NCBI RefSeq assembly: GCF_003473485.1
Contig: NC_053042.1
Coordinates: 32,206,762 to 32,270,761, forward strand
Source of the DNA: Medicago truncatula
Taxonomy: Eukaryota; Streptophyta; Magnoliopsida; Fabales; Fabaceae
DNA: 64,000 nucleotides
Direction: 5' to 3'
The number at the start of each line of letters is the position of its first letter. The first letter of the stretch is position 1. Below, one piece after another: positions 1-39,724 of the stretch. The translations under genes and the position numbers were made by a program. The notes under the pieces are model-generated. The model ran no database searches. It was not told the origin of the DNA and was given only the letters and a program-made list of their open reading frames with translations.

Positions 1-1875
1 ATAATCATAATGAAATAAAAGAAATGATCATAATAAAGTTTTTTATTTTATTTTACTTTTTGGAATCGGAACTATCGATATTGTATTGATGTCTTAACTA
101 TGATTAAGCTCAAGCTTGTTTACTGCTTAAGTAAAATAAATAAGGGAGAAAAGGATAAGAGTATGTATTATCAATATTCTCTTTTTTGGCCAAGTTGATT
201 AGATTTTCTCCTCTGTACCATGGCTTTTTTGTTTGTAATTTTGGCTAGGATATTTGATCTGGTGGTGTGTTCCATTGATGGAGTAGCTTTGGTTTGTAAA
301 CATTGTTTGTTGTATTTTTATTGTCCAATTTTCTAACAAATGATAGGCTCGGTCATTTACATTCCTTTACAGAAGGTGAGTAAAGTTTTCTTGTGAGAGT
401 GTAAGTCTTAACTTTAATAACGATACTAATGTGTGTGAAAGCCTAGATGACATTATGACAATTTAGGAATTTTAACATTTGTTTCGTTTCAATTATTTGT
501 GAGAGTGTAAGTCCCAACTTTAATAACGATATCAATGTGTCTGAAAGCATGGATGGGCGATGACCCTTTCTCGTATTGCACGTATGACTTTTAGGTGCAA
601 GGTTCAAAATGACATCATTAGAGATTCTATCCCACAAAGTTAACCACTATTATATAATCCTAAGTTCATCATCGGTAGATATATTTGCATTAGTTTAGCA
701 AAGAGGTTGAGGAGATTCAAAGAATACTAATCACCTATAAAACTCTAAATAAAACCATTTTATTTATTTCTGCAATCAAATCAACTTGTTTTGTGCAATC
801 AAACAAAACTTATAAACTACCTTCGATGTACAATTTAATTCATAAGTTTAGTAAATTGCCTAATTTAAAATGACAATCTTTGTGAAGACGAAAAACTACT
901 TACTACTTAAAACAGTTTGGCGTGCTTGCCAAATTTGTCACCAATTTTTTTGCATCGTCGCCAATTATTGTTGATCTTTTCAACAAGGCAAATTCTTTTT
1001 ATTTTGCATCGTATGCTGCTTGATGCATTAAGACTGTTGGGGAAGTAAGAGAGCTGACTGACAACATGTCTCTCAATTAATAATACAATTACAAACCACA
1101 AAGCAACTAGGTGAATATCCAAAATAAGAAAGGTGTGATTGATATTGATACTCATGATGCTTTTGCTTACAGGTAATAAAATTCTCAGCAACCAATTGAA
1201 AACCACATCCAAGAAGTTAGAAGCTAATGAAATGGCGCAACTCTTATCGAATGGTCTGATGTATGGTGGTATCCACAAACAAGCTCTTGTCACCAACGCA
1301 TGCTTACCGATTATTTCCGTGTTATTAGAAAAACATGTGAAAATACATGCGACCACATGTTAACCAACAAAGCAACAAGCTTTTGGCAGAAGTAGTAGAA
1401 AGGAACATATGAAGTAATCAATGCAGGGAATTCAGAGTCGAGGCTAGTGGATGATCCTCATGAAGAAGATTAGATTGAAGACGATGAATGAAAATTGGTG
1501 TAAACTGGGTATCTCAACACGGAGACTAATTCATCGGGTATTGTGGGATTTAAATGGGCGGCAGACTCTCCCTAAAAATTTTAACACATTTCTGCATGTC
1601 AAGGCTGGATTCGAACCCCATTAATTTTTTTATTTGCTTTCAAGTCAATTTTTAATTTCAACCAAGATCTCACTTAATATTCTTGATTCATTTTTATGAA
1701 TTACATAACCTTTTCCTTTCAAAAATTTTAAAAAGAATTGTTTTAGCCAATAAAAAAACCACTCTTTCTTTAGTTTTGCTTTTTTTTTTTTGTTGAGAAA
1801 AACCCTAATTCTTTCTTCTCTACCTCGTCCAATTGTTTCCCACTTCTAGTTTTCTTCTCAAAACCAAACCCAACA
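1..1875. other. Intergenic region upstream of NOP14; imperfect direct repeat
   Basis: No convincing gene. A segment of about 57 bp at 391-447 recurs at 497-553 with a few substitutions (period about 106 bp). The stretch around 907-1500 has short open frames on both strands with interrupting stops; it could be decayed mobile-element DNA, but I recognise no domain. Confidence 0.6.
1800..1808 (+). promoter_or_regulatory. Telo-box (AAACCCTAA) in the NOP14 leader
   Basis: The 9-mer AAACCCTAA lies 67 bp before the NOP14 start codon, just after a T-rich run. Telo-boxes near the transcription start are a known feature of plant ribosomal-protein and ribosome-biogenesis genes, so this position in a NOP14 gene is functionally coherent. 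That it is used here is inference. Confidence 0.55.
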
Positions 1876-4800
1876 ATGGCGAAATCATCGAAACGCAGCA
1901 TCGCCAACGGAACCAACAACAACACCACCACCAGCAAGAAGAAGAAGAACAACAAGATGGGTCCCGAAGCGGTAGCCATGAAAGCAAAAGCTCAAAAAAC
2001 AAACAGCAACCCATTCGAGTCAATCTGGTCACGTAGGAAATTCGATGTAATGGGTCAGAAGCGGAAAGGAGATACCAAACGAATGGGGTTGGCACGTTCT
2101 CTTGCTATTGAGAAGAGGAAGAAGACGTTGCTTAAAGAGTATGAACAGAGTACGAAATCTTCCGAGTTTATTGATAGAAGAATTGGTGAGAATGATGAAG
2201 GGCTTGATGATTTTGGTAAAGCTATTTTGAGATCGCAGCGGGAACGTCAGGTAGTAGCTATATTCATATATTTTTTTTACAGCTTATAGCTTAAAAGCTT
2301 ATCATGCTTAATGTATGTTTGCTTTTGCATCCACCAAAATTGACTTTGAGTGAATTGATTCTAGCTAAAAGTGAGTTGAATGGAAACTAGTTTATGTTTA
2401 GATATATTTATGTAGTAAAAGTTAGTTGAACAATAAATTTGAGTGTTAAAATCAATTCTAAAATCAAAAGCTACAAATCCTTGCTTCAAGTAGAACCAAT
2501 TCTACTCAAAAGCAACCAACCTTGTCAGAATCAAGTCTAGAAGTGGAACCAAACATACACTTATTTGAGCTTATCTACCGGTATAAATGTTTGTGGGATA
2601 ACTTATGAAAACAATTTATAACATGTTCATAAGAATGTTTTCAGCTTATTTCCGTAAGTTTCCCAAGATAACAGTTTATAGCTTATACGGAAACTAATTG
2701 ACTTCATTTTATCTTGTATAATAGAAAAAGCTTATAAGAAAACAAATTGACTTTATTTTATCTTGTATAATAGAAATATCTTATTTGATAAGCGCTTATA
2801 TGATAAGTGCTTATGCTATGCATGAGCTTCAAAACAAGCTATTTATCCAATCAGGGCAATAATATAGTTAAATTATTTTGTATAAGCTATAAGTTGTTTT
2901 CATAACATATCTCGGGGTAATTGATGTAAATAATCTGAAAACAGGTTATGAACAATGTCATAAGATGTTTCCAAATAGTCTCACAAAGCTTATGCCAATA
3001 TATAAACTCTAATAAGCCAATCCAAACAGGTCCTAAACTTTATTCAAAAAAAAAAAAAAAAACAGGTCCTAAAGTGATTGTTTGATTCTATTTTTGTTAC
3101 TAGTTTTTAAAATCACAAGCATTATCTGTTATCGTTTTGAGTTTAATGGGAATGCCCTTTCAATCAACATCCAACAAGAATTTATCTTGCAACATAAACC
3201 TGCATATCTGCTTTGTAACCAAATTTAAAAAATACATGCAAATACTTGATTCTCATTGCGCATTAGTATAAAACTATAAAGTAAGAAATTTTCAGTTTTA
3301 ATTTTTTGTTAACTAAGAACTGTTTCTGAAAAGAGAATTGAAACAGTCTTTAATTTTGAATTTTTGTCCTCGAAAATTTTGTGAATTAATGATTGTTTTA
3401 TGGTTGTTGAAATTGTAGTTGAATGTGAAATCGAGTAAGAAAAGCAAGTATCACTTGTCAGAAGAAGATGATGATGAATTTGAAGGAATTGATGGTCTTG
3501 GAAGGGATGACTTTGAAGATGAGATGCTTGGGGAAGATGATGATGAAACTGATGGTACGTAGAATTCATATTAGTTTCTGTTTACCTAATATAACATGTT
3601 AATGGTTTATTTGCTGATTGGAACTTGGATGTTTTGAACTCTAATTAGCTATTGGATGCCTGATAATTTGATAATTAACTTGGATGATTAATTAGCTATT
3701 GAGCTCTACATACATACCATGTTTATACTGTTTGTTTTAGCTGTCTTCTATTTTGCTCTATCTTGAAGTTTTATTTGTGTGCCTGTTGTGTTATTTTTGT
3801 AATGTAAGTTATGTTGAATATTGATTTTGCAGATATTTCAGATTTGGGCCGGCGTCATAATGCTCATGGTATGCATAGTCCAGGGGAAGCTGGCCTAGCT
3901 GATGGTGGGGAAAATGTAAGGCCTGTTATGCTGTCAATGATGGCTCCCTTACTATTTTCTTATATATATTTTTCTTCTATTACTGTGACTTTAGGGAAGC
4001 ATTATGAATCATGAGTGCTTTCTGTAATCTACCAGTTATTTCTGTTTCAGTGACTATAGGTAATCTTGTCTCGATATCAATTCCTTTTTAAATTTTTCAC
4101 AAATGTCACTTTATTTAAAATGCTTTGAAGCTGTTTCTGACTGGTGACTTATCCTACAGAGACATAAAACCAAGAAGGAAGTGATGAACGAAGTTATTGC
4201 AAAAAGCAAGTTTTACAAGGTGTGCGATATTTCTTAAATCAGGGCTCTGTTAGTTTATTTGTCTTCTACAACTTGTTCACTTTCTTTTCTTTCACTCTAA
4301 TATTTTCCAGGCTGAAAAAGCAAAAGAAAAGGAAAAAGATGAAGACCTGCTGGAAGGATTAGATAAGGACTTCACTTCTCTGGCTCATTCCGAGGCCTTG
4401 TTGGCTCTGACTGAACCAAACAAGATGAAAGCTTTGAAGGCTCTGGTGAACAGTAGTATTTCAAATGAAAAAAGTGATAAAGATAGCTTGTCTGCTAAAC
4501 GGACAATGAATAATTCTGTCCAGGTACCATTATTTATCCTCGAGGGATTCTTCTTGCCCTGATATCTTCTTTTTATAAGAACATCCTATATTCCAAATTT
4601 CTCTTTATGGCAGGAAAAGCCAGATGAATATGACCAACTTGTCAGACAAATGGGATTTGAAATGCGTGCTCGTCCTTCAGATAGGCTGAAGACAACGGAA
4701 GAGATTGCTCAGGAGGAAAGAGAACGTCTAGAGGAGTTGGAGGTATGATAACATGACTTTTAGATATAAGTTTGTTATTATACAATTAATAAATTACTTT

Positions 4801-7800
4801 TAGTATTTTATCACATTTTTTAAACATTAACTGATCTCCAATCTTGGTTGTATATCTGAGCTTCGTTTTAAGATGGTTTAGATGACTTGTTTTGGCCAAA
4901 GTGTATAAACTGGGATGAACCCAAAACTACCTAGCTTAATGTAGGATTGATGTTCATATTTTATTGTAATATGTATAGTGTACTAATGTTGACAACGAGT
5001 GAGCCTCGGCAATGCCGTCACTTGCAGGGTTGTTGGCTTGTAACCCTGTGGATCTTGGTGATAGTCATGAAAATGGGCCCGCTGCACATGGGAGTAAAAT
5101 TGTGGAAATACTTATTTTTTATGAGTCAGATACTTAATACTTTTATCCATAATTTCAGAAAAAACGGCAGAAGAGAATGGCCGCTGCTGAAGATTCGAGT
5201 GAAGAAGACGATGAAGAATCAGAAAAGCCATCAAAAGAGAAACCAAGATCTCTCTCTGGTGATGACCTTGGAGATTCCTTCTCTGTCGATGAAGAAACTA
5301 TGACTAAAAAGGGTTGGGTTGATGAGATTCTTGAGAGAAGAGATGAGGAGGAGGGTTCTTCTAGTGAAGATGATGATGGTGAAGATTCTGATGATTCGGA
5401 AAGGTCTGAAGATTCTGGTGAAGGATCTGAGGGTGATCTTGATGAAAACGATAAGAATACTACTTTGAAAGATTGGGAACAGAGTGATGATGATGATATC
5501 AGTGCAGGTTCAGAAGGTGAAGATGATGATATCAGTGCTGGTTCAGAAGATGAAGATGATGACGAGGACGAAGAAAGTGCTGCAGAAGAAGTTGATAAGG
5601 TAAAAGGATTGAATGTTGGGATTCATAAAAAAGCAAAGAGAAATGATTCTGTTGAAAGTGTAAAGGGAGATAATGGTTCTTCAGATACCAAGAAGATAGT
5701 CATTGGAGGGAAAATGTCGAAAGAGTTAGAGATTCCTTATATAATTGAAGCTCCGAAGACCTTTGAAGAATTATGTTCACTGGTGGATAAACGTTCAAAT
5801 TCTGACACTATCTTAATCATCAATCGGATACGGAAAAGCAATCCGATCACACTTGCTGCAGAAAATCGAAAGAAAGTACAAGTAAGAAACTTATATTTAT
5901 ATTAACTAATTGTTTTGATCCATATCTCCTTGGTGCTTGTATTCATGTTTACTAAATCCACCGACTGTTTTACACGAGAAGTGTGATCTCTTGGACTTTT
6001 CAACCCGAGTTTTAACTGTTATATTGAACTTTTTTGTGGCATTTTTGACAATCATTGAAAAATCTTTATTTCAATTTCTAAAATTGCTGTCAAACTATAT
6101 TCCATTTACAATTTTGCTGGTGCTACAATTATTCCCTATAGGAGACTGTTTACTGTTGCTTCATACCTACTGCTCCCCTGTTTTTTTTCTTTTTCTAGGA
6201 GACTGCTCCCCTGTTATTTTTCTTTTTGGAGGAGACTGCTCCCCTGCTTAACAACCAATAAAATACAAGAAAACATTTTGTAATAAAGAACATCTGAATA
6301 ATCCCATTATATAGCACCTAAAACTAATTAAAACAAGTTCTAACTCATTAGATTGATATAATTTAGTTAATAGAGGCTGGTTATGTTGTCATTGATGTAT
6401 TGCATGGTTTAATTTGAAAAAGTTCATGGAGTGTAAAGAAGTATGTAGAAAGCACGTGCCTGTGGTTGTTTGCATTCTTTTGTAGCCCAATCCAGTTTGC
6501 AATACTCAGATTTAATAGACTAATTTGCTTAGTTGGTTAATGAACGACTCTCTTACATTCTGTTCCTAAATATTTTATGAGGCACTTGTGCTCATGATTT
6601 TTGTACTTCTAATTATATGTATTTATAACCTTATTTCTCTTTTCAGGTATTTTATGGAGTATTATTGCAGTATTTTGCTGTTTTGGCAAATAAGAAAATG
6701 TTGAACGTTGAATTGATTAACATGCTAGTGAAACCATTGATTGAGATGAGTACAGAAATCCCATACTTTGCTGCAATATGTGCTCGTCGCAGAATAGAAA
6801 TCACTAGAAAGCAATTTGTTGAGAGTATAAAAAACGCAGGTCAGAATGAATTTAACTTGAATACTTTCCGTCTCTGCCTTAACTTTTATCAAGAACTATG
6901 AATTGGTAGATGTTTAAGCAGCAAATGATGTAAAATTCTTCTGCTATCACAGAAAGTAGCAGTTGGCCTTCTTCAAAGACGCTGTGTCTCTTGCGATTGT
7001 GGTCCATGGTATTTCCATGTTCCGATTTTAGACATCCAGTTATGACTCCTGTGATACTATTGATGTGCGAATATCTGATGCGTTGCCCAATAACATCTGG
7101 CCGTGATATTGCCATTGGTTCTTTCTTATGTTCTATGCTTCTCTCTGTAAGTACCTCGTGTGGCAAGTTACTTTCTCGTTTTATACTTTTAAATTTTTTA
7201 TAGGCCAAATATCTTCTGCGGTCCTTTAAGTTAGACGTTTATAACAAATAAGTCCTTTAAGTTTTTTGTTCAAATTGGTCCTCTAAGTTTTGTTCTGTTA
7301 CAAATTAGTTCTTTAAGTCGTATGATATTTACACTGTTACCCATTTTTTCAACCAACTTTGTTAAACAGTGCTTATGGATCATTTAACATTAAGGTGGTA
7401 GGTCTAAACGTGCTTTCCTTATTAAACATGATTACTTACGCACATTTTATTCTTCTAATTTTTGAATTGAAGCCTAATTTTACATATAAATATTTCATTA
7501 ATAGTATTATAAATCAAGTGTTCGATCAATTTCATTTCAAATCAAAACTGTATATTACACCTATGAACCCTAGTTGGACATGCCAACTTAAGATTAAATG
7601 TCCACATGCACACTTTTTAACTGGGTTTGATGAAAATATGATAATGGTGCAGATATTTTATGACTTAAAAGGACCAATTTGTAACAAAAAAGCTTAAAGG
7701 ACTAACTTGTTATAAACATCTAACTTAAAGGACTGCAGATGGTATTTGGCCCTTTTTTTTTTTTATGTTATCACCATTCACCAATAAGGATCTGATGAAA

Positions 7801-34950: not shown

Positions 34951-37259
34951 CTAGGATGATTTTCTTCTTAAGAAAATTCTTGGAAAAATGCTCCAACCTT
35001 TCTTAGTTTTAGTCAGCTTCTTAAGCTCATTTCTAATGCTTGAACATTCCTTCTCTAGCTCTGATACACGATCCCTCAAGTTTTCACCACCTTGTGTAGG
35101 GTCCACTTGACCATTTCCATTACTCCTTGAGAATCCAAAATTTGCACTTTGTGAAGTCTCAAGGTTGTCTGAAACAAACAACCAACTAGAAATTGATGTA
35201 CGAAGTCGAAGTTGTTCAAAAAACAAGACCTGCACTATTACTCTCAGTGGTATCCGTTCATTTTGTGCAGCATGTGTGCTTGCTTCTAATGACAACTTTT
35301 GGCAGTTCATGAGTCTACAAAATTGTTCCCTTTCAGAATCTATTAGCCATGGATGTGCCTACAATTGACATAAAATTTCTTACATTAATTAAAATCATCA
35401 TATAAAAAAAAGATGAGTACAAGTTAAACGAGGTTAGGATATGTAGTAGCGACACGTCAGATTGAAAACATGTCTCCTGTCAGACAATATCGGCATATGT
35501 GATAATTTTCTTCAAAATTGAAGTAAGCAAGCATCACCTTAAGGTATACATCAATAGCATGATATAAACCATCATCCAATGGCCTAGCATAATCAGGAAT
35601 TGAAGCAGCAAGAGATTGAAACTTAGGCAACTTCAAATTAACATCAAGAGCCACCTCAGTAAGATATGCATCCAACAAATTAGCCACAATTGTCATAGGT
35701 GTCAATGCATCAACTCCACCAATCAAGGATCCTTCACCAGTTATACATAATGGAGTAGTTGATGTTGTTCCAGGATTATACATTGACATAAAATGATCAA
35801 TAATTCTTTGAATACAATCTATATCATAAAGTGTCTCAACTGAATATCCCATATTTGGTATCAAAATATCCACAAGTTCAACTTCATCAAGCTGTGAACC
35901 AACCCTTTTCTCCAAATTTTCTATGCATGATGAACTTGCATGTAATATCATAGCTGTTCTTAGCAACCTAAGAAGATACTTAGAAGGGATTACACTTTTT
36001 TTATTAGGAATCAACCCTACAATTTCTTCCAATAATGCCCTTTGATTTCCTTCTGAACTTCTACTTGGTGTTGTCCCTTGACTAACACTAGTTTTGTCAT
36101 TGAAACTTGATTGTCTATTCATCAAAGGTATATATCTCCTAAGATAACATATTAATGATGCAGCAACATTCTCAGGTTTCATACCTTTTGATTCAATTGA
36201 TACAATAAGTCTTTTATATAATGGCAAACTTATTAAACATAAATCTTCATACCACCAATCATCACTTGAAGCTTGTGACTTAGTTTCGGCCGAAAAATCC
36301 TCGGAACATGCCTTGATGGTTAAGGAATCAATGCATCTTGAAATAATGTGAAGATCTTCTGCATAAGATTTAACTTCTTCACATGTTTGAAGTGCTTTTA
36401 TTGAGTCTGGCCAATTGCTGAAAACTTCATCAAGAATTTTTTTTGTCACTTCTATTAAATTCCTTTCACCATAATTCTCATTCATTTGTAAATATTCTGC
36501 TGCACATCTTAGACTAACCACATTTAATGGTGTGATTTCTAGTTTTACACCATAGCAAAACTTTGTTATGATCTCAAATGTTTTGTCTCCACCAGGTACA
36601 TCATGAAGTTGTAAAATAGAATTTGATCCATCTTCATTTGTGGAGTCAGCAAAAAGTTTCTTTAGTAATCCACTTCTAGAGAGCAATGGAAACTACAATA
36701 TCAAAATCAAAATTACATATTAAGATCATAGTATTGAATATTTAAAGTTTTTTTTTTCTCTAAGAAAAACATAACCTATTTTGTGTTTGCTTATCACAAT
36801 GAAAATCTTTCTTTTTTGAATCATCCATTGAAACTAATTTTTAAGAAAAGCTATTGATATTCTTTAAAAAAAATTGCAACAAACGGGCCACAGAAGGAAA
36901 GTGTGGAAAAAACCCTAAGAAGATAGTGTTGTGCATCAAATAATCATTTTCAATAAAAATTTAATGTTAACATGCACCTTGTGGAGAAAAAATGATGTCT
37001 CCCCTACTGCAATGGTAACATCACTTGTAAGTCCAGTTGTACAAACCCTGTAGCAAGATAAAATATGATCAAATAATCATTAATTGAACCATTAAGAAAA
37101 ACTATTTGTTGAACCTATTTGAACGTAACTTTTTTTCTCTATTGAAGCAATATGATATACAAAGTACCATATCATATACATACAAAAAAAAAATTCTTAC
37201 CATGTGTGGCCATCACGACGAAATATATCAGATTTAGATCCAAGCTTCAACAATGCCAT
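34951..37259 (-). CDS. BTB/POZ-NPH3 domain protein (NRL family), 4 exons, 563 aa
   Basis: NPH3/RPT2-like proteins are plasma-membrane-associated signalling scaffolds or CUL3 substrate adaptors; family members act in phototropism and auxin-carrier positioning. Exons: 37259-37201, 37047-36978, 36692-35538, 35358-34951; GT-AG junctions, 1692 nt. The N-terminal GSKSDIFRRDGHTWVC block and the BTB core (SDVTIAVGETSFFLHK, about residues 28-43, to about 115) are followed by the NPH3 domain. That starts at DDWWYEDLCLISLPLYKRLI (about residue 187) and runs through LYHAIDVYLKAHPWL to RLRTSI. A C-terminal coiled coil (RVSELEKECSSIRNELKKL) and a basic end RRKSS follow. Length is normal for the family. I cannot tell which subfamily from sequence alone. 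Confidence 0.93.
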
Positions 37260-37639
37260 TTATTGCAGCTTAGTTAACATAGATTGAAATGTGAGTGAAA
37301 TTGAGACATATAATTGTTGTATCAAGAACAGAAAGGTGAAATGAAAAAACATGCATGCAAGAGAATTAGGAAAATTGTTGAGATTGTGTTGTGGAGTGAG
37401 AGATGAGAGCATAGTGGAATTATTACATTGTGATTTGTGATTAATGATTATTGTCCACAACATTAAACACAAATCGCGAGTCTTATGTTAACATAACTGA
37501 AATAACAGAAACATATGGTTCCACACTTTTTGGTATACTTCTTATTAAAAAAATTGACAAAATTTGATTTCATCACATAATTTAAAAACTAAAAAGTAAC
37601 AAAATCTGATTTTATTTCCATTAGAAGAAACAAAGAGAA
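37260..37639. other. Upstream flank of the NPH3 gene
   Basis: Leftward promoter region between the NPH3 start codon and the Pack-MULE-like element. Only AT-rich sequence; no clear TATA assignment. Confidence 0.4.
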
Positions 37640-37707
37640 CAAAACAACGGGTGCGGTTATCATGCATAACGAATCCCTATGCACCCTACATAAATCCTAG
37701 CCCATTA

Positions 37708-37800
37708 TGCCAAAACCATTTTGCAGTGGAAATGGTTTCTGTGAGTTGGACTCCAAAACCATTTTGCTGTGGAAATGGTTTCTGTGAGTTGTACTCCAAA
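37708..37800. repeat. Two 43-bp tandem units near the left end of the Pack-MULE
   Basis: The unit CCAAAACCATTTTGC, then GTGGAAATGGTTTC, then TGTGAGTTG occurs twice with three differences, and a partial third CCAAAACCATT follows. Each unit holds a CCATT / AATGG inverted pair. Subterminal repeats of this kind occur in MULEs. Confidence 0.7.
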
Positions 37801-37827
37801 ACCATTAGATATACTTAATGGTTTTCT

Positions 37828-38307
37828 TTGATCCAGCAGGGTGCAATTGAAAACAGAACCGCCGAAAATCAGCCTCGGGTAGAGGAGGCGGCCACCATCG
37901 GCTATTGCCAAGGTCACCTAAACCAAACCCAAAGTTTGGATTCAAGCCTCGATCAAGCACTCAAACGCCGCCACAATCAAGTCGCCGGTCACAAACGCGA
38001 CCAAGAAGAACTTCTCCTTTCCACTAATAACAACAACCGCTCCTCCGATCCCAAACCCTCTGATTCCGACCGCCTGGATCGGGACCGTGACCGTGGTCAC
38101 GATCGAGACAGTTACAAAGAAAGAGAACGTGATAGAGACAGAGAAAGAGATAGGGAAAGGGAAAGGGAAAGGGAAAGAGACAGAGATAACCGAGATCGTG
38201 AACGAAGAAACCGCGATAGAGAACGTGAAGAAGAGAAGACGAAGAAACACAAACACAACAAAATCATGTCGCAATCCCTGGAGAAATCCGTGCAACCTCG
38301 CCGGTGA
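37828..38307 (+). pseudogene. Captured gene fragment, RS/RD-rich N-terminus like a PRP28/RH21-type DEAD-box helicase
   Basis: The frame reads ALKRRHNQVAGHKRDQEELL, then an Asn-Arg-Ser linker, then a long Arg/Asp/Glu dipeptide region. From memory of the family, a basic-Gln segment followed by an RD/RE region resembles the N-terminus of plant DEAD-box helicase 21 (PRP28 homologue); other RD-rich splicing factors remain possible. The block lacks any helicase motif. It is preceded by an intron-end-like CTTTGATCCAGCAG, so it appears to be a genomic fragment including an intron boundary. It starts without a convincing ATG (the frame opens at ATC). It sits inside the Pack-MULE-like element. Whether it is transcribed is unknown. 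Confidence 0.55.
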
Positions 38308-38550
38308 AATCACGTCGCTGTGAACCTGGCCGGATAAATCACGTCGAAGCGGCGAGCAAGGGTGAAAATCACGTCGGCGTCAGAGCTACGATGAGCTTCT
38401 GCATGTGTGTGATCAGATTGTGAGAGTGCGAGCTGATAAACCTAGGATTATTACACGTGTAAAACATTACACAAATCTGATGGTTGTGTAGTGTTTATGG
38501 AGGGTGCATAAAAAAATGACTTATGCATAATAACTTTTGCCCAAAACAAC

Positions 38551-39052
38551 ACATCACCTAGGGGACTAAACCCATGCACATCAATGGATTTACCCACGAG
38601 TGACTAAGATCAAAAGTAAAAGATAGATTCTTAGCTTTCAACCACTAAAATGATAACAATTTTGCTTTATCAAACAAATGAACAATTGTCTCCACCTTTT
38701 GATGAAAACAGCGGTAATTATTTTCCTTTCAAATGACTCAAACACATATAAACAAAATCCTTTGAATATAATTTTAGGACTAAATAGAGACTAAGTTCAT
38801 GTTTTTTGTTGTTGTAAAAATTAATTAAGAAAAGAACTAAAATTGAAAAAATCAATGCAGGGACAAGGCTTAAAGATTTGCACTTTTATATGGACAAAAA
38901 CATATTTAATCAAAAAAATAAAATTAATCAATATTTTTAGTTGTTTGATCTATGAAAAACAATTAAGATGTTAAATGATTTCTCATAATTTTTTTTCATC
39001 AAATTGTCAACATATATTATTCCTTTTTTCCTGTAAAATGAAATTAGAAATT
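38551..39052. other. Intergenic, no feature supported
   Basis: AT-rich sequence between the Pack-MULE-like element and LINE-derived sequence; no gene seen. Confidence 0.5.
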
Positions 39053-39724
39053 AATACATTTCATTCATCATAAGCGTAGAGATACATGATGTAATTTTAA
39101 TAAAGATGCGGAAACTAGCATGGTGTGGAGCTTCCCTAGCTAAGCTAAGGACCACTTTATTGCCTTGACTCCTAATGAACTTTACATTAGAGTTCGCTAA
39201 ATCAGATACTAGAAGACGTCTACAATCATTGATAATTGCACTATAATCAGAAACGCCTTGCATATTACCTTATATACTATCAACTATAGTTTTAAAGTCT
39301 GTCTTGAAATCCATGTTAACCAACTGGTGGTCATGAGCCCATTGAATGGTTGAGAGCATGCCTAACGCCTCACCCATGTGCACATCTAGCACCAGAGAGA
39401 TCCATTATGTTTTGACCAAGAAAAAACAAATCGTCATTTGTTATCTAGAATACACATACCGAGTCCTACACATACCGAGTATACCTTATTCAAAGACCGA
39501 GAAAACGAGGTGTCAACATTGCATTTGTATCTACCGGTGCTTGGTTTCCCCCGGCTCATCTCATCTCGGTCATCACTTTGTAGATGAGTTTGGCTTGTGA
39601 TGACCTTCACCTTTTTTTAGCTATTGAGTAGAGTGAAATTTAAAAACATACAAAATATTATTACTCATATTTGTCTCAAACATTAATTATTAATTTTTAG
39701 TGTGACAAATTAAAATATGTTTGA

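Follow-up and report, generated by a model that had tools for sequence, protein, structure and literature searches.

The window analysed here is a 64,000-nucleotide stretch of Medicago truncatula DNA, corresponding to C1:32206762-32270761 of the genome searched (429,922,655 bp in 42 contigs, eight of them large, at about 43-65 Mb). Within it, a compact repeat-bounded element carrying a piece of a splicing-helicase-type gene lies upstream of an NPH3-domain gene, some 390 bp from its start codon (an ATG at 37259, read by eye), and the helicase-derived frame, referred to below as the RH21 frame, reads away from that gene. The features of this locus are:

35457-37259, minus strand: NPH3-domain gene (NPH3 domain match; first exon at ATG 37259 read by eye)
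37640-37648, no strand: left target-site duplication copy, CAAAACAAC (from sequence and family flank comparison)
37649-38541, plus strand: complete non-autonomous element, 893 bp (limits from the 9-bp duplication and family-wide end comparison)
37649-37710, plus strand: left terminal module (inverted repeat); 35 of 40 sequences compared match it with at least 60% coverage
37710-37752 and 37753-37795, plus strand: pair of 43-bp direct repeats in subterminal position, 95% identical to each other, their number differing among siblings
37819-38307, plus strand: stop-to-stop open frame of 162 codons in the RH21 frame (from translation)
37838-37953, plus strand: inner segment with 17 genome matches, all 17 at family loci (11 nearly whole, six covering the first 35 bp only)
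37954-38237, plus strand: captured 284-bp fragment of a PRP28/RH21-type (DDX23-type) DEAD-box helicase gene, covering residues about 30-113 of the parent
38238-38445, plus strand: second inner segment, present in family members without RH21 and also at other sites, mostly at about 72-83%
38473-38541, minus strand: right terminal module (inverted repeat); 36 of 40 sequences compared match it with at least 60% coverage
38542-38550, no strand: right target-site duplication copy, CAAAACAAC (from sequence and family flank comparison)

The 40 sequences compared for the end modules comprise 39 fetched loci, including the parent gene, and the window copy. The original prediction had placed a probable Pack-MULE at 37640-38550; that span holds the element together with both duplications, the element itself being 37649-38541. 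The GC-richer block that it described is present, with a GC content of 0.48 at 37750-38249 against 0.29-0.32 at 36000-37499 and 0.26-0.27 at 38500-39249, and values up to 0.41 also occur outside the element in the profile of 34-42 kb. Genome matches of the two inner segments gave no named gene as their source. To the right of the element, two short minus-strand frames (39051-39616) resemble, on visual reading, the decayed remains of an RNase H-type retroelement; they gave no Pfam match. Mutator-like elements (MULEs) are described as favouring insertion within genes or close to them (PMC6446971).

Ends, duplications and genome-wide family

The ends of the element mirror each other imperfectly. 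The word TATCATGCATAA (37658-37669) has a mirror image near the right end with one change, TATGCACCCT (37678-37687) has an exact mirror in AGGGTGCATA (38501-38510), and a repeat search returned inverted arms at 37678-37699 and 38489-38510 that are 86% complementary. Local alignment of the first with the last 120 bp scored 49, compared with a maximum of 38 among 500 letter shuffles; the terminal alignment of the window copy has 56 identities over 68 aligned positions and 21 gap positions, with the outermost 7 bases unaligned. Terminal inverted repeats are present in the window copy, short and imperfect, and are common to the family. The TIR-like ends proposed earlier are real by this score and by their recurrence across the genome, and the predicted 43-bp subterminal repeats do lie just inside the left end.

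A DNA search of the genome with 37640-38550 gave at least 89 matches, with 40 of 580 candidates scored; these were grouped, and 39 loci were fetched besides the window copy. Allowing up to three mismatches, a 40-bp core pattern of the left end occurs at 61 genome sites and a core pattern of the right end at 89, and the reversed-pattern controls gave no site in either case, which shows that the ends are more than chance. A facing right end lies within 20 kb of 36 of the 61 left ends, at 488-1214 bp in 35 cases and at 3787 bp in one. Sibling elements sharing the ends were thus found at dozens of loci, as the original prediction required; the empty site that it also sought was not found in this genome, where the flanks joined with one duplication copy matched only their own flanks and, elsewhere, a weak 59-bp piece.

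The 3787-bp end pair belongs to a 3.8-kb member, L072 (G000:C1:41495900-41499850, 61-3898), which is flanked by an exact 9-bp duplication, GACCGACAT. The 13 scanned of its 14 frames of at least 60 codons contained no transposase match, and the only matches, all below cut-off, were to Cornichon (0.034), PH_SPT16 (0.0014), and DUF366 (0.0039). Another longer locus, L071 (G000:C3:10172000-10181900, 109-3355), has a family left end, with subterminal repeats about 2.8-3.2 kb further in; the frames of its stretch 100-5600 reach at most 117 codons, one frame having been scanned. A 107-codon frame at 1020-1343 of this locus has a weak B3 match below cut-off. L079 has a right end only within the stretch fetched.

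Several loci vary in other ways. L065 (G000:C8:44376900-44378700, 120-937) has near-consensus ends around a different interior, in which a 129-codon minus-strand frame (456-845) may derive from a different host gene; this remains a suspicion, as its Pfam SAND match (E 0.0031) falls below the curated cut-off. L066 has three left ends that all point the same way and lie about 325 bp apart (G000:C4:28648343, 28648667, and 28648992), forming a tandem array of one terminus. Right ends in the same orientation recur every 18.4-19 kb or so on C3 (G000:C3:27131254, 27149695, 27168144, and 27187155), a spacing that suggests a large tandem segmental repeat containing a family end.

The repeated 9-mer originally noticed at the borders, an exact duplication of CAAAACAAC flanking the element, is a property of the family and not just of the window copy. 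Duplications were counted in 31 loci taken as two-ended, namely 30 fetched loci and the window copy; nine loci, the parent gene among them, were left out because one or both ends were unrecognised, and L030, which was counted, is a pair of two left ends. At least eight of nine positions match in 21 of the 31 loci, compared with 11 of 930 mispaired flanks, and the match is perfect in 14 of 31, compared with 1 of 930. In 20 of the 21 loci with at least eight matching positions, the matched 9-mers sit flush with both ends without any shift. The other 10 of the 31 loci, L030 included, have no duplication of this quality.

These properties bear on the class of the element. MULEs generate duplications of 8-11 bp, a range that includes the exact 9 bp of the window copy, and many plant MULEs are described as having lost their transposase and carrying host-gene fragments, in which case they are called Pack-MULEs (PMC6446971). 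The search for a relative that has the same ends and encodes a transposase found none: among the 150 of 923 candidates scored for a MULE transposase domain (PF10551), none was closer than 20 kb to any of the 150 end-pattern sites, and the nearest was 23 kb away. Membership of the MULEs is therefore inferred from the duplications, the ends, and the behaviour of the family. That negative search, together with the short and imperfect inverted repeats, would also suit a non-autonomous element of another TIR superfamily, such as hAT, bearing the same gene fragment. However, hAT elements make 8-bp duplications (PMC8903248), whereas those of this family are 9 bp long and flush in nearly all of the good loci, within the MULE range, so that another superfamily appears very unlikely. 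The Pack-MULE reading is supported by the 9-bp duplications, the ends, the multiple copies, and a captured fragment with its parent gene, and the locus is a Pack-MULE-like element, real and well bounded, for which both parent gene and siblings have been identified.

The helicase gene fragment and its parent

The original prediction attributed the open block to a PRP28/RH21-type gene, and the search for a parent found one of exactly that type. The parent, or its closest living form, lies at G000:C4:64337043-64339160, where 37954-38237 of the window aligns to 4931-5181 of the fetched locus (L024). This locus has an uninterrupted frame of 739 codons. In its 706-residue protein, DEAD, Helicase_C, and DDX23-like domains score above the Pfam cut-off, and the closest solved structure is human hPrp28/DDX23 (E 1.6e-205, residues 18-705); these results confirm the identity guessed. 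Because the parental coding region is a single frame, the comparison of intron boundaries proposed earlier is uninformative. A fragment of a host gene with its parent in the same genome is present in an element that contains no transposase.

The fragment corresponds to about codons 30-113 of the parent and does not include the parental start codon. Its alignment with the parent spans 287 columns, of which 237 are identical and 50 differ; as 39 of these 50 are gap columns, substitutions amount to 11 of 248. A second full-length PRP28-type gene, 95% identical to the C4 gene, lies at G000:C6:722746-724740, and its RD/RE-rich N-terminal repeat region is shorter. This C6 gene was considered as the source of the capture and rejected, since, of the 17 aligned columns that distinguish the two genes, 15 have an element majority base identical to that of C4, in a gappy region where single columns are uncertain.

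Besides the parent, nine of the 40 compared sequences carry the fragment: it is whole in the window copy, L009, and L010 and partial in L011-L016, and the nine copies are distributed over C1, C2, C3, C5, and C8. All nine have the same left junction and the same 3-bp deletion relative to the parent, and all eight that keep the region have a 12-bp insertion as aligned, another alignment placing these indels somewhat differently. A common left junction and common indels are most simply explained by one capture followed by amplification, and the RH21 piece was, on this comparison of sequences, most simply captured once and amplified afterwards.

The same junctions weigh on another explanation, that the block is a degenerate RH21 gene copy or a segmental duplication with repeats around it by chance. 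An open frame in the window copy and the existence of a second PRP28-type gene could be read that way, but only residues about 30-113 are present, they lie between ends common to dozens of loci, and the identical left junction at nine places makes it unlikely that the block is part of a normal gene here. In our view, the repeated junctions and 9-bp duplications refute this explanation, which can be given almost no credence.

Two relatives, L017 and L018, have the left neighbouring segment and no RH21 sequence, and they share 25 bp (with one difference) at the point where RH21 starts in the other copies. In L018, the two segments found on either side of RH21 in the window copy are only 33 bp apart. 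The simplest reading is that the 284-bp fragment replaced those 33 bp and that L018 is close to the pre-capture form; it is possible that L018 instead lost RH21 through deletion. The window copy differs by 0.064 substitutions per site from L009, by 0.070 from L010, and by 0.046 from the parent gene, divergences that, at commonly used plant rates, we take to mean a time scale of a few million years. With nine fragment copies and 36 facing end pairs at unrelated sites, the family has evidently been mobile.

The reading frame and its possible effects

The open frame seen in the original prediction exists as 162 codons from stop to stop, the longest other frame of the element having 145. It gave no Pfam match, and its only in-frame ATG, at 38266, lies downstream of the RH21 part, with none before or inside that part. 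No stop interrupts the RH21 part retained in six of the nine copies, the window copy included, while in-frame stops fall inside it in L009 and L010, the two other whole copies, and in the partial copy L015, where the frame is lost. The further suggestion that the frame is expressed thus finds an open frame in the window copy but neither a start codon nor a frame kept among siblings, three of eight being broken, and expression as a protein is weakly supported. The frame is probably passenger DNA.

Some features of the changes are signs of constraint and run against the passenger reading. Synonymous changes relative to the parent make up four of eight in the window copy and five of 10 in L009, and 35 of 72 for all nine copies together, which are not mutually independent, compared with 154 of 729 possible changes expected at random; every indel in the window copy and in L009 has a length divisible by three, those of other copies including other lengths, partly by alignment. 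A constrained parent gene that continued to change after the capture would give the same pattern without selection on the element.

A function could also act through RNA. The window copy shares 62 exact 21-mers and 48 exact 24-mers with the parent coding sequence, the longest run being 55 nt, so that small RNAs against the parent, as originally proposed, are possible in sequence terms. These matches, the existence of nine copies, the description of Pack-MULEs among maize siRNA sources (PMC13317346), and the excess of synonymous changes and triplet indels could all suit a functional RH21 block, yielding either a chimeric peptide or small RNAs directed at its PRP28/RH21 parent. The missing in-frame start codon and the stops in siblings that include both other whole copies argue against it, however, and the constraint-like pattern is equally well explained by change in the parent; such a function is judged unlikely. 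A more specific form, in which small RNAs from the nine dispersed copies would together match the 5′ coding region of the splicing-helicase gene PRP28/RH21 and modulate how strongly it is expressed, is put a little lower again; if true, it would give a transposon family some control over spliceosome activation. In M. truncatula, a strong contribution of TIR/Mutator sequence to the lncRNAs of nodule senescence has been reported (PMC9189404), which makes transcripts from such elements possible in general and says nothing of the window element.

The preferred account is that of a non-autonomous Mutator-like transposon, a Pack-MULE, that captured an RH21 piece and was amplified as a chimera in trans, and as a whole it is very probably correct. 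An ancestral member of this family of small elements would already have had the inner segments 37838-37953 and 38238-38445. It would have gained the 284-bp N-terminal coding piece of PRP28/RH21 by copying, probably displacing about 33 bp, and transposase supplied in trans would then have moved and multiplied the chimera. The outcome would be the copies seen today, at least nine on five chromosome-sized contigs, in six of which the fragment's right-hand part is now missing. One copy would have landed about 390 bp upstream of the NPH3-domain gene, duplicating CAAAACAAC on arrival, and its gene piece is most likely a passenger without protein function.

The case is a well-resolved plant gene capture. 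One genome contains a parent-type gene, the junctions, nine descendants of the capture, and a relative that probably represents the state before it, which allows the order of events to be read. The family is also a small set of cases in which to test whether amplified pieces of a splicing-helicase gene give rise to silencing RNAs, and it provides a caution for annotators, as the 162-codon frame should not be called a gene.

Comparison with known systems

As described in PMC13317346 and PMC8903248, the Pack-MULEs found in rice and in other plants are likewise non-autonomous elements with inverted ends, target-site duplications, and a host-gene fragment whose parent lies elsewhere. Compared with these, the window family has short terminal repeats, no linked transposase among the candidates scored, and one fragment in nine members. 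Terminal repeats of hundreds of bp are given as common in MULEs (PMC6446971), in contrast to the short, imperfect repeats of the window copy. MUMET1, a MULE from the same host (PMC6446971), resembles the element in host species, and no relation between the two is claimed. Pack-CACTA elements are also non-autonomous carriers of gene fragments, with duplications of 5 bp (PMC8903248) as opposed to the 9 bp found here.

A literature search, weak on subscription papers, found no published report of this family or of a helicase-bearing Medicago Pack-MULE. The closest published parallel seen is PM-ZIBP of tomato, a multi-copy dicot Pack-MULE family built around one gene fragment, with 14 copies (PMC3310237). 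PM-ZIBP carries a fragment of a zinc-ion-binding protein gene and has tandem terminal repeats on both ends in 13 of its 14 copies (PMC3310237), whereas the window element has single ends, 43-bp subterminal repeats, and a PRP28/RH21 fragment. Placed among these systems, the element is new as an individual and ordinary as a kind.
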